NCBI GenBank assembly: GCA_023251255.1
Contig: JAHEZD010000001.1
Coordinates: 183,279-247,278, forward strand
Direction: 5' to 3'
Source of the DNA: Chitinophagaceae bacterium
Lineage (GTDB): Bacteria > Bacteroidota > Bacteroidia > Chitinophagales > Chitinophagaceae
Length of the DNA: 64,000 nt
Part shown: positions 2,816 to 61,434 of the stretch, piece after piece
Layout: each line of letters begins with the position of its first letter
Position numbering within the stretch: the first letter of the stretch is position 1
Notes under the pieces: model-generated
The model's database searches: none
Seen by the model: only the letters and a program-made list of their open reading frames with translations
What the model was told of the DNA's origin: nothing
Position numbers and translations under genes: made by a program

Positions 2816-2894
2816 TTTGATGAGATAGGCGGGTATGTATTTCTTGATGACTTAAGTTGCGCCGCACCCTTCTACAGCATATCTTTATTCGGCA

Positions 2895-3506
2895 ATGTAC
2901 ATTTCGTTAGAACAAACAGGCAAACGCTTCAACAGGGATTGGATATTCCGCAAACTTGATTACCGGTTCCAGCTTGGAAAATCATACGCTATCACTGGAC
3001 CCAATGGAAGTGGCAAAAGCACTTTGCTGCAAGTAATTGGTGGTGCAACAAGCCAGAGTGAGGGAAATGTTCAGTATTCAATGAACAATGCTCAATGTTC
3101 AAGCGAAGACATCTACCAGTATATTTCCATTGCTGCACCTTATTTGGAACTAATTGAAGAAATGTCCGCAAAAGAATTCCTCCAGTTCCATTCTTCCTTC
3201 AAAAACCTGACACATCCTATTGAAGAAATTATCTCCATCATAGGTTTGGAGAAAGCTGCTGATAAACAGATCCGCTATTATTCATCTGGCATGAAGCAAA
3301 GGATAAAATTGGCCCAGGCCATTTTTGTTGATGTCCCTATTTTATTATTGGATGAACCATGCACGAACCTGGATAAAACTGGCTATGATCTGTATCATCA
3401 ACTCATCCAAAATTATTGCGGTAACAAACTTATCATTGTAAGTAGCAACGACGAGATGGAAATGGACTTTTGTGGGGAAAGGATAAGTATATTGGATTGG
3501 AAATGA
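2895..3506 (+). CDS. ABC transporter ATP-binding protein
   Basis: A 203-residue stand-alone ABC ATPase. It has Walker A GPNGSGKST (about 35-43), the signature-like YYSSGMKQR before helix LAQA, Walker B PILLLDEP with the following D-loop, and a terminal IVSSND in place of the usual switch histidine (His replaced by Asn or Ser). Fold and length fit an ATPase that pairs with a separate membrane subunit, but no permease is nearby. It follows the lipid A genes after a terminator, so any envelope role is inference. It converges tail to tail with the Uma2 gene with no base between the two stops. Confidence 0.85.
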   Translation: MYISLEQTGKRFNRDWIFRKLDYRFQLGKSYAITGPNGSGKSTLLQVIGGATSQSEGNVQYSMNNAQCSSEDIYQYISIAAPYLELIEEMSAKEFLQFHSSFKNLTHPIEEIISIIGLEKAADKQIRYYSSGMKQRIKLAQAIFVDVPILLLDEPCTNLDKTGYDLYHQLIQNYCGNKLIIVSSNDEMEMDFCGERISILDWK

Positions 3507-54551: not shown

Positions 54552-54843
54552 AAGAAGTTTGTTTTGATTTACGGCGGCGAAACTAAAACATTGCCGCCAC
54601 AAGAGAGAAATTCTTTTAAAGCCTTAATTGAGGTATTCCATCAAGTAGGTTTATGGATATTTTGACTTGAAAATGCAGTAACTGCATCTGAAACTCCAAT
54701 TTCAAAGTTGTCATAATTCTCCTTATCATAATTCTTTTTTATGACAAGGAGAATTATGACAAGCATTGATACTTGGGACCGTTTCAAGAGTATCCAGACT
54801 TAACGATTCCATCATTCATAAATCAATCATTGATTGCAAACTT

Positions 54844-54866: not shown

Positions 54867-55220
54867 ATGAGCGAACTAGTCAAAGAATTCAACGATTACA
54901 GGGAAAAAATGAACGAAGTCATCCTCAGTAAGAACAATTTGGTGATGAAGCGTTTATGGAACCTGGATACGAATACTTATGAAGCAGGGGCCATTGATGC
55001 AAAAACGAAGGAAATGTTGGGGCTTGTGGCCAGTATGGTACTGCGTTGCGATGACTGTATCAAGTACCACTTGGGAAAGAGCTTTGAACAGGGTATAACC
55101 ACGGAACAGATGTACGAAATTTTTGCAGTGGCCAATATTGTTGGTGGCACCATTGTCATACCTCATACGAGAAGGGCGGCAGAGTACTGGGAGGAACTAC
55201 AGATGAATATTGAACATTGA
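54867..55220 (+). CDS. Carboxymuconolactone decarboxylase/AhpD-family protein
   Basis: A 117-residue helical protein with the AhpD-type redox motif CDDCIKYHLGKSFEQG (CxxC plus His) after a helix ending LVASMVLR, then IFAVANIVGGTIVIPH. These proteins take part in peroxide defence or thiol redox; the substrate is unknown. The last five codons and the stop (ATGAATATTGAACATTGA) are part of a 16-bp repeat that recurs after the next gene, so the natural C-terminus may have been altered by an insertion. Confidence 0.88.
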   Translation: MSELVKEFNDYREKMNEVILSKNNLVMKRLWNLDTNTYEAGAIDAKTKEMLGLVASMVLRCDDCIKYHLGKSFEQGITTEQMYEIFAVANIVGGTIVIPHTRRAAEYWEELQMNIEH

Positions 55221-55758
55221 TAATTGAGTATTGAACATTTGCTTCTCCCTTGTACTTTAATAATGCTCAATAGTCAATGTTCAATTATCAATACTCAATG
55301 GGAAATCGTTGTTTTTTCAAAAAAGACCGTTTTTTGTATTTTCATAGTAGCTAAAAATGGCCTTTATGGAAAGAAAAAAATTTGATCTTGAAGATAGATT
55401 GGTTGAATATACTTGCAGAATGATTGACGTGGTGGAAACTTTGCCTACAACCAAGTCTGGTAACTACATTGCAGGGCAGCTAATCAGGTCTTGCCATTCT
55501 CCAACTTTTAATTATGGAGAGGTTCAAGGGGCAGAAAGCAGAAATGATTTTATCCACAAAATGGGTGTTGTTTTAAAGGAGTTGAAGGAGTGTCGCGTAG
55601 CTCTAAAAATTATTGTCAAAAAAGAAATGATTAAACCAATTCAAAAATTGGATGGTATTTTCAAAGAAACGGAAGAACTGATTGCTATTATTGCCAAAAG
55701 CATAGAAACCGCTCAAAAGAATAAACCAGCTAATACACTTAAATGAATATTGAACATT
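55203..55758. mobile_element. Four-helix-bundle gene cassette flanked by 16-bp direct repeats
   Basis: ATGAATATTGAACATT occurs at 55203-55218 and again at 55743-55758, exactly flanking 524 bp that contain only the four-helix-bundle gene. The left copy forms the end of the AhpD-like gene; the right copy begins in the cassette gene's stop region. Inside the left end, 55207-55238 and 55265-55300 form a long imperfect inverted repeat of ATTGA-type units (ATTGATAATTGA). A reverse copy of GAATATTGAACATTCTT lies at 61373-61389. Direct repeats look like a target duplication; no transposase is present. Confidence 0.5.
55357..55746 (+). CDS. Four-helix bundle protein (S23/bAvd-like)
   Basis: A 129-residue all-helical protein of the four-helix bundle family (TIGR02436): FDLEDRLVEYTCRMIDVVETLP, GNYIAGQLIRSCHSPTFNYGEVQGAES, FIHKMGVVLKELKECRVALKII. 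Relatives are encoded in intervening sequences of 23S rRNA genes and, as Avd, in diversity-generating retroelements. Here there is neither rRNA nor reverse transcriptase. It is enclosed by short direct repeats. Function unknown, possibly nucleic-acid binding (basic surface). Either ATG (55357 or 55366) could be the start. Confidence 0.88.
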   Translation: MAFMERKKFDLEDRLVEYTCRMIDVVETLPTTKSGNYIAGQLIRSCHSPTFNYGEVQGAESRNDFIHKMGVVLKELKECRVALKIIVKKEMIKPIQKLDGIFKETEELIAIIAKSIETAQKNKPANTLK

Positions 55759-55851: not shown

Positions 55852-56889
55852 ATGAGTACAGTTGCAACGGCAGCCCCAGCATTAACAGCTAAGGATTTTG
55901 CCACCGATCAGGAAGTGCGTTGGTGCCCCGGTTGTGGGGATTATTCCATATTGGCGCAGGTGCAGAAAGTAATGCCAACATTGGGCATTCCGAGGGAGAA
56001 TGTGGCCATCATCAGTGGCATCGGCTGCTCATCCCGTTTCCCCTATTACATGAACACATTTGGTATGCACTCCATCCACGGACGTGCTACGGCTGTGGCC
56101 AGTGGATTGAAAGCTAGCCGCCCGGACCTGAGTGTTTGGATCGTAAGCGGTGATGGTGACAGTATGAGCATTGGTGGCAATCATACCATCCACATGTTGC
56201 GTAGGAATTTCGATGTGAACTTCTTGGTGTTCAACAACCAGATTTATGGGTTGACCAAGGGGCAATATTCACCAACATCAGAGGAAAAGAAGGTTACCAA
56301 GTCAACCCCCTTTGGGAGCATAGACCATCCATTCAATCCATTGGCCCTGGCCATGGGTGCAGATGGCACTTTTATTGGCAGGAGCATGGACAGGGACCCC
56401 AAGCATTTGCAATATATGCTCACCAGAAGCTACCAGCATAGGGGAACATCGTTCCTTGAAATCTACCAAAACTGCAACATTTTCAATGATGGGGCTTTTG
56501 AAACATTCACGGAAAAATCAACCAAAGCAGACAATGTTCTGTTCCTTGAACAAGGCAAACCATTGATTTTTGGCGCTACTCAAAATAAGGGTATCAAATT
56601 GGATGGTTTGAAACCTGTAATTGTGGATTTAGCGGAAGGAGCAAGTGCAGATGATTTATGGATCCACGATGAAGCAGATTTTTATAAGGCCCAGATCCTG
56701 ATCCGCATGTTTGATGACCCAAGGATTGAAGGCCATTTTCCAAGACCATTTGGGGTATTCTACCAAACAGAAAGACCTTGCTATGAAGATGGCATGAAAA
56801 TGCAGATAGATGAAATCATTGCTACTAAAGGCAAAGGGGACTTAGATAAACTGTTGAAGGGAAGGGAAGTTTGGGAGATTGTGGCATAA
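55852..56889 (+). CDS. korB: 2-oxoacid:ferredoxin oxidoreductase, beta subunit (KorB-like)
   Basis: A 345-residue thiamine-diphosphate subunit: RWCPGCGDYSILAQVQ, SGIGCSSRFPYYMNTFGMHSIHGRATAVASG, WIVSGDGDSMSIGGNHTIHMLRRN with NNQIYGLTKGQYSPTS (ThDP/Mg site). It decarboxylates 2-oxoglutarate or pyruvate with reduction of ferredoxin. The alpha subunit normally lies immediately upstream; here the upstream genes are the four-helix-bundle cassette and the AhpD-like gene, and no alpha subunit is in the window. The ATG at 55852 is the family start. Ends at a strong terminator. Confidence 0.93.
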   Translation: MSTVATAAPALTAKDFATDQEVRWCPGCGDYSILAQVQKVMPTLGIPRENVAIISGIGCSSRFPYYMNTFGMHSIHGRATAVASGLKASRPDLSVWIVSGDGDSMSIGGNHTIHMLRRNFDVNFLVFNNQIYGLTKGQYSPTSEEKKVTKSTPFGSIDHPFNPLALAMGADGTFIGRSMDRDPKHLQYMLTRSYQHRGTSFLEIYQNCNIFNDGAFETFTEKSTKADNVLFLEQGKPLIFGATQNKGIKLDGLKPVIVDLAEGASADDLWIHDEADFYKAQILIRMFDDPRIEGHFPRPFGVFYQTERPCYEDGMKMQIDEIIATKGKGDLDKLLKGREVWEIVA

Positions 56890-61345: not shown

Positions 61346-61389
61346 ATTGAACATTTAACCTTCATTCACACCAAGAATGTTCAATATTC
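61346..61389. repeat. Inverted ATTGAACATT repeat, related to the cassette ends
   Basis: ATTGAACATT (61346-61355) and AATGTTCAAT (61376-61385) are perfect complements around a 20-nt loop. The right arm extends to 61389 as the reverse complement of GAATATTGAACATTCTT, the sequence found at the right end of the four-helix-bundle cassette (from 55746). It lies in the 179-bp gap before the patatin gene. Confidence 0.6.
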
Positions 61390-61434
61390 AACAAAGAACA
61401 TTTAGCTTGTAGGTCAAAACTCATTCTTTTAACG

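Follow-up and report, generated by a model that had tools for sequence, protein, structure and literature searches.

Inverted heptad arrays around S23 four-helix-bundle genes, seen from an insertion beside korB in a Chitinophagaceae genome

We wondered how a small gene came to lie on its own between an AhpD-like and a korB-like gene, with the same 16 bp on either side, in the 64,000-nt stretch of DNA analysed here (the window). The original prediction took the locus for a self-contained insertion, and both copies of the direct repeat ATGAATATTGAACATT indeed proved exact (16/16), with 524 bp between them (Table 1). The exact 16-mer has no further copy in the 6.1-Mb draft genome. When up to three mismatches were allowed, the window held nine matches against 2.43 expected, a number reached in 0 of 100 shuffles. 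The proposal that the left copy supplies the last codons and the stop of the AhpD-like gene was confirmed from the ORF, whose end (MNIEH and a TGA stop) is encoded by this copy. The predicted left-end hairpin of ATTGA-type units is real as well: its 31-nt arms are 81% complementary, with 29 nt between them, and when folded as single-stranded DNA it reaches -15.4 kcal/mol (z = -4.06), with 0 of 200 shuffles as good. A reverse copy of the repeat exists with one mismatch, at 61376-61391 and not at 61373 as first given. The insert codes for the S23 protein described below and for nothing else; it carries no transposase.

Table 1. Coordinates of the insert, its parts and neighbours, and related repeats in the window
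Feature	Position	Strand	Remarks
Whole insert, 556 bp	55203..55758		missing at the AhpD-korB junction of seven relatives
Outer-left ATTGANN array	55203..55239	+	first 16 bp (55203-55218) are the left direct repeat
Inner-left ATTGANN array	55262..55300	-	forms hairpin with outer-left array; partly pairs with right repeat
S23/four-helix-bundle gene, 129 aa	55357..55746	+	TIGR02436, PF05635, structure model, fold match
Right 16-bp repeat copy	55743..55758	+	overlaps S23 stop codon
AhpD-like gene (PF02627)	54867..55220	+	insert runs into its 3' end
korB-like gene (PF02775)	55852..56889	+	right neighbour of insert
Dispersed repeat copy, one mismatch	61376..61391	-	no S23 gene there
Dispersed heptad-like array	3066..3102	-	inside open frame of ABC-transporter gene (2856-3503, +)

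The array inside the ABC-transporter frame belongs to the ATTGANN family and is read as NVQYSMNNAQCSS. A strong palindrome lies at 54693-54778, between a PfkB gene and the AhpD-like gene. An Rfam search returned 14 matches up to E 1, none of them at gathering score; those at 54690-54781, to several miRNA models, stay below the gathering scores and reflect hairpin shape only.

The gene product belongs to the S23 four-helix-bundle family, with 66.5 bits to TIGR02436 (cut-off 24) and 34.6 bits to PF05635 (cut-off 33.8). A structure model of the monomer has four helices (pLDDT 90.5), and its best match among solved structures is 2rld (E 1.3e-5). Family models, structure model and fold match thus bear out the description of the gene product as a four-helix bundle of the S23 family. 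S23 proteins are mostly basic (median pI 8.7 over 221), and the window protein has a pI of 9.0.

Is the gene absent from the same place in related genomes? We found korB in 35 of 39 relatives. In seven of them (G002, G004, G005, G006, G015, G020 and G022) AhpD adjoins korB without an S23 gene; in G021 the spacer measures 612 bp and holds no S23 match either; the remaining 21 of the 29 relatives' loci fetched gave no AhpD match within the stretch examined. Eight AhpD orthologues align only to residues 1-111 or 1-112 of 117, and all eight lack MNIEH. Because of the seven empty sites and the orthologues without this C-terminus, the segment has been inserted, as judged by sequence comparison, into the 3' end of the AhpD-like gene, in agreement with the original prediction, and it may be mobile.

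The repeat itself fared less well. An empty site with a single repeat copy had been expected; empty sites were found, but the repeat is absent from them, the best match to ATGAATATTGAACATT there having 4-7 mismatches. A target-site duplication was therefore rejected as the origin of the 16-bp repeat, which with at least four mismatches at the empty sites, and as a member of a dispersed ATTGANN family, finds no support as a mark of the target. At the empty site of G002, whose korB is 93% identical, lies a short palindromic array of a different unit. Dispersal of the repeats without the gene had been named beforehand as a point against the insertion; this point holds by half, the ATTGANN family being dispersed in the window's genome. 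Other four-helix-bundle genes flanked by the same repeat had also been anticipated; there are none among the 18 other TIGR02436 loci of the genome, where two exact ATTGANN units in succession occur just once, in L047, some 1.4 kb away from the gene. These other S23 genes have other units, so that one repeat family for all S23 genes of the genome was likewise rejected.

In other genomes, genes for relatives of the window protein are bracketed by short repeat units in inverted arrays, and the unit varies from genome to genome. This arrangement was scored by local alignment of the 200 nt upstream of a gene with the reverse complement of the 200 nt downstream. A threshold of 14, the lowest without any control, was set on a first set of loci and then applied to a second. 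The first set comprised 156 loci, of which eight had no ORF (L128, L140, L148, L052, L053, L054, L169, L216) and two more were dropped for short flanks. Among the 146 left, 83 S23 loci scored at least 14, compared with 0 of 131 other genes taken from the window and the korB loci and with 1.3% of 1743 swapped pairs. The second set, from named genomes, held 80 loci, reduced to 75 by two without ORF (L237, L286) and three with short flanks; 45 of these passed, and so did 35 of 1475 swapped pairs. Among the 74 in-locus controls seven passed, all of them TIGR02436 members, therefore 0 of 67 non-S23 genes reached the threshold; lowering it to 12 lets through one true control of this set, an aspartate carbamoyltransferase gene. 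About four in ten S23 loci per set (63/146 and 30/75) stay below 14, in a sample that leans toward high-scoring members. Since L231 duplicates L181, both scoring below 14, 220 of the 221 loci are distinct. Five of eight scored loci from MAGs labelled as other phyla pass the threshold, with contamination possible. Near seven loci (L240, L244, L255, L272, L273, L275 and L308) there is a second S23 gene whose own inverted arms score at least 18.

The arrays are periodic. Over the 221 loci the lag was 7 in 101, 14 in 50 and 8 in 26, with only 0-4 loci at each of the lags 4-6 and 9-13. Lag-7 arrays were found in the flanks of 8/131 controls of the first set and 16/74 of the second, the latter including S23 neighbours. 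Inverted periodic arrays thus surround S23 genes in general, in two separate locus sets, and the class has a common anatomy: a single S23 gene is enclosed by inverted arrays that repeat every 7 bp or, in fewer cases, every 8 bp, the whole mostly measures some 430-600 bp, and it usually stands in sense direction between operon genes. The window insert would be an atypical member, as it has a complete hairpin at its left end and a single unit at its right. Its sole gene-spanning inverted pair is 15 bp long, its upstream and downstream flanks score 10.0 against the threshold of 14, and a lag-7 array at 22 of 28 occurs nowhere in the 64-kb window, whose own ATTGANN array is shorter and looser.

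In the 128 loci above threshold the arms have a median length of 28.5 nt, most often about four units (46/128); about 31 nt separate the left arm from the ORF, and about 12 nt the ORF from the right arm. The arms have a polarity. Read along the gene, left arms contain 2056 G versus 683 C, and G exceeds C in 116 loci, with the reverse in seven and a tie in five, in a collection that includes orthologues and is therefore not made of independent loci throughout. Alignment of the 105 heptad loci placed about one G in each unit, usually after an A, with a signal of 2.13 bits, compared with at most 1.91 bits in 20 permuted sets. A test of unit order for copying between arms gave 6 of 104 loci below 0.05.

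We asked to what extent the unit goes with the gene. Common arms were found in 0 of 39 pairs of S23 loci from the same genome. Between genomes, arms were common to 65 of 197 pairs with proteins more than 55% identical, to 3% of 1617 pairs at 45-55% identity and to at most 0.4% below; they mostly kept the same orientation (140 forward, 13 reverse). The unit thus belongs to a particular S23 gene and is often kept by close homologues, and part of this sharing may reflect common descent of one locus. As only ten same-genome pairs exceed 45% identity, we claim no avoidance of common units between paralogues.

The units are also present without the gene. In the genome of the window, TTGAATATTGAACATT with up to two mismatches gave 53 matches at 34 places, and the reversed pattern three. 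Four units of resident S23 genes gave 53, 60, 73 and 49 matches at 34, 28, 42 and 25 places, and their reversed patterns 3, 2, 7 and 1; two foreign units, typical of S23 arms elsewhere, gave 0 and 5 single matches versus 26 and 22 for the reversed patterns. All patterns were 16-mers with up to two mismatches, except for one degenerate pattern with at most one; the counts include the S23 genes' own arms, matches overlap within arrays and were therefore also counted as separate places, and the reversed controls span 1 to 26 matches and form no flat baseline. The four units of the genome's S23 genes are dispersed without the gene and the two foreign units are not, a possibly REP/RAYT-like trait of inverted repeats tied to a protein gene, as far as a comparison within one genome and with two foreign units goes.

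At least three of the dispersed places (contigs C128, C119 and C102) are, judged by eye, compact hairpins like that of the window, and none of the TIGR02436 matches listed for the genome lies within 4 kb of them. We read 18 dispersed places for hairpins, with scores that have no null. An inverted pair scoring at least 14 occurs at 8 of 9 AATGTGCT places, in seven cases as a compact hairpin too tight to hold a gene, and at 1 of 4 GCTGAAA places; an inverted pair in the expected unit is present at 0 of 5 GATKTAD places. These counts indicate that not every unit family has a hairpin form. Near position 2336 of L089 (G000:C44) an ATTGANN run, read as EMLNAQCSMLNNQL, lies in frame inside a UbiD-family gene, so arrays enter coding sequence too.

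A place where cassettes can be followed between species was found in G138, which has a 521-bp S23 cassette between groES and groEL, both recognised by sequence. A joined groES-groEL probe matched 118 of 121 genomes of its genus, and 20 spacers were read, picked for large, middle and small gaps, for which reason no frequency is claimed. Six of the 20 (L341 and L343-L347, from six species of this genus) contain an S23 gene that shares 75-100% identity with that of G138, with arms all of the GCTTTAA type. Two are bare, at 34 and 41 bp, and the bare sites of G194 and G276 have no array. A right-arm remnant is kept with the gene gone in two more, one (G231) has an inverted array of another unit and no S23 gene, and the remaining nine are short (82-120 bp), some of them with further kinds of repeat. 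Cassettes are gained or lost at this one site, be it through a single old insertion followed by losses or through several arrivals. Among the five intact S23 genes, six of ten pairs gave dN/dS of 0.03-0.10 at high dS (0.8-2.0); the other four gave no dS because of saturation. The S23 protein of this lineage is therefore under purifying selection. The gene of G198 (L347) was excluded from this range, as it is out of frame near its start and so may be decaying. The spacers L351, L353 and L356 contain a different inverted repeat with CTCCCC/GGGGAG cores.

S23 genes are widespread: of 149 genomes sampled from the class, 121 have a match, with up to 23 genes per genome. There was no match among 50,697 phage records. 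On plasmids, 27 records have an S23 match, 21 of them cyanobacterial, and the records name the genes only four helix bundle protein or S23 ribosomal protein. Ten of the 13 plasmid loci read (12 cyanobacterial, one Riemerella) reach the threshold of 14, with units that include AGGGAGT, GGGAACA, GCTAAAA and GGTGACA. Of the controls, 12 of the 156 swapped pairs pass as well, and so does one of 19 neighbouring genes; this gene is cas4 in L381, which adjoins the S23 array. On the cyanobacterial plasmids L381, L387 and L389 the S23 gene lies in cas operons, twice flanked by cas6 and cas4 and once by cas10/cmr2 and cmr3. Where loci have neighbours on both sides, the S23 gene and its two flanking ORFs share one direction in 61 of 68 and in 106 of 131 cases.

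How can these observations be brought together? We consider it rather probable that the insert is a member of a widespread class of S23-heptad cassettes, which resembles both the intervening sequences (IVS) of 23S rRNA and REP/RAYT systems and in which S23 recognises its own array; within this explanation, binding and movement are what we infer. The S23 proteins, probably assembled into five-membered rings, would each bind their own array with one subunit per 7-nt step. Such a ring would account for a constant period, for the small number of units in an arm and for a word that changes with the protein. Recognition by S23 would maintain the array and occasionally spread it, with or without the gene, as a RAYT does with its REP family. 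The strand-transfer enzyme, which would lie outside the cassette, would be supplied by the host, and gene-less dispersed copies would be non-autonomous offspring.

Could heptad hairpins, produced by slippage or another agent, have been present beforehand and served as landing pads, with S23 genes arriving in or beside them? Many hairpins and arrays of the window's genome have no S23 gene, the window gene sits beside a complete hairpin, the empty site of G002 has a small array of another unit and the G231 spacer an inverted array without S23. Yet pads of this kind fit poorly with a unit that differs among the S23 loci of one genome (0/39) and is often kept by close homologues elsewhere, with the foreign units that are not dispersed in the window's genome, and with the bare groES-groEL sites of G194 and G276, which have no array; we regard them as unlikely. 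An explanation at the RNA level, in which the arms would pair in the transcript and RNase III would excise the cassette from the operon mRNA with little harm, appears clearly less probable to us. It would agree with the anatomy of the IVS, an S23 ORF between complementary ends in the excerpt available of PMC4990558, and with the co-directional neighbours on both sides (61/68 and 106/131). However, the IVS as described is in 23S rRNA and not in mRNA, and arm mismatches on the sense strand comprise 117 G-U versus 133 A-C; this lack of a G-U excess speaks against selection for an RNA stem, which we rejected.

The original prediction implied an ordinary insertion sequence or MITE with a 16-bp target duplication. 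Restriction of the exact 16-mer to the two ends speaks in its favour, so the two copies are probably related by duplication. Because the 16-mer is found at no empty site (at least four mismatches), the segment codes only for S23 and for no transposase, and the repeat stems from a dispersed family while other S23 loci have inverted ends, we think this reading very improbable. Ordinary slippage repeats or terminators beside an old, vertically inherited gene would make the association incidental. Heptad repeats are known in several phyla and ascribed to slippage in the part of PMC4679880 available, but in both of the separate locus sets the inverted pair goes specifically with S23 genes and the window gene is missing at its site in relatives, which makes mere coincidence exceedingly improbable.

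The favoured reading of S23 cassettes that recognise their own arrays has a bolder version, which we put forward tentatively and hold to be somewhat doubtful: S23 proteins may be sequence-specific keepers of heptad arrays in Bacteroidota and cyanobacteria, with an own word per lineage and with rings in which every subunit would read one 7-nt unit; together with a host enzyme they may copy their arrays into intergenic DNA as inverted pairs, accompanied by the gene or not. If so, they would form a REPIN-like selfish system built on a non-catalytic protein, with the 23S rRNA IVS as a specialised offshoot, and would account for some of the heptanucleotide repeats that lack an explanation in these groups. 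The recurrence of one layout in distant bacteria, with an own repeat word per gene, suggests overlooked tiny genetic parasites or repeat-keepers. Joining S23 genes and heptad repeats leads to one testable question, whether each S23 protein binds its own repeat, and places the 23S rRNA IVS in a larger cassette class, members of which occur even in cas operons or in the groES-groEL spacer. We found no literature tying S23 or four-helix-bundle genes to heptad arrays among open-licence papers, which by itself does not prove novelty.

In REP/RAYT and REPIN systems, short inverted repeats are dispersed in a genome and tied to one protein gene, and several families exist side by side. The cassettes would share with them the dispersed short inverted repeats that go with one protein gene of the genome, as the one genome examined suggests. 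In contrast to RAYTs, which are Y1-type transposases, the linked protein is here an S23 four-helix bundle, a small protein for which we know of no catalytic activity. Related heptanucleotide repeats are treated in the cyanobacterial STRR literature, and to our knowledge the heptanucleotide repeats of these groups have no accepted origin. Those of cyanobacteria, Beggiatoaceae and Bacteroidetes are described in the excerpt available of PMC4679880 as 7-bp, intergenic, of many units and patchy across phyla, and in period, intergenic position and number of units the S23 arms resemble them. The repeats treated in that paper, in which neither S23 nor a helix bundle occurs, are mainly direct repeats of one unit, TAACTGA, whereas S23 arms are inverted and have an own unit per gene.

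PF05635 is said to resemble Avd of diversity-generating retroelements (cf. PMC10053308, as far as available). The model of the window S23 protein shares its fold class with Avd (4dwl; TM-score 0.62-0.65 by query length, E 0.12-0.21). Unlike such retroelements, the window gene has no reverse transcriptase among the eight neighbouring proteins scanned (53.6-63.7 kb), all of which have other Pfam matches. For the 23S rRNA IVS, the available part of PMC4990558 describes an S23-family ORF between complementary ends, about 430 bp in Coxiella and of an origin called unclear, and a Xanthomonas S23 protein that forms a ring of five four-helix bundles. These cassettes differ from it in lying between protein genes, the window copy between AhpD-like and korB-like genes and not in 23S rRNA, and in arms with a 7-bp period and an own unit per gene, units that are dispersed without the gene as well. 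What they have in common with the IVS, as a class (83/146 and 45/75 loci), is the S23-family ORF between complementary terminal sequences; for the window copy, with its 15-bp inverted pair, this likeness is less certain.
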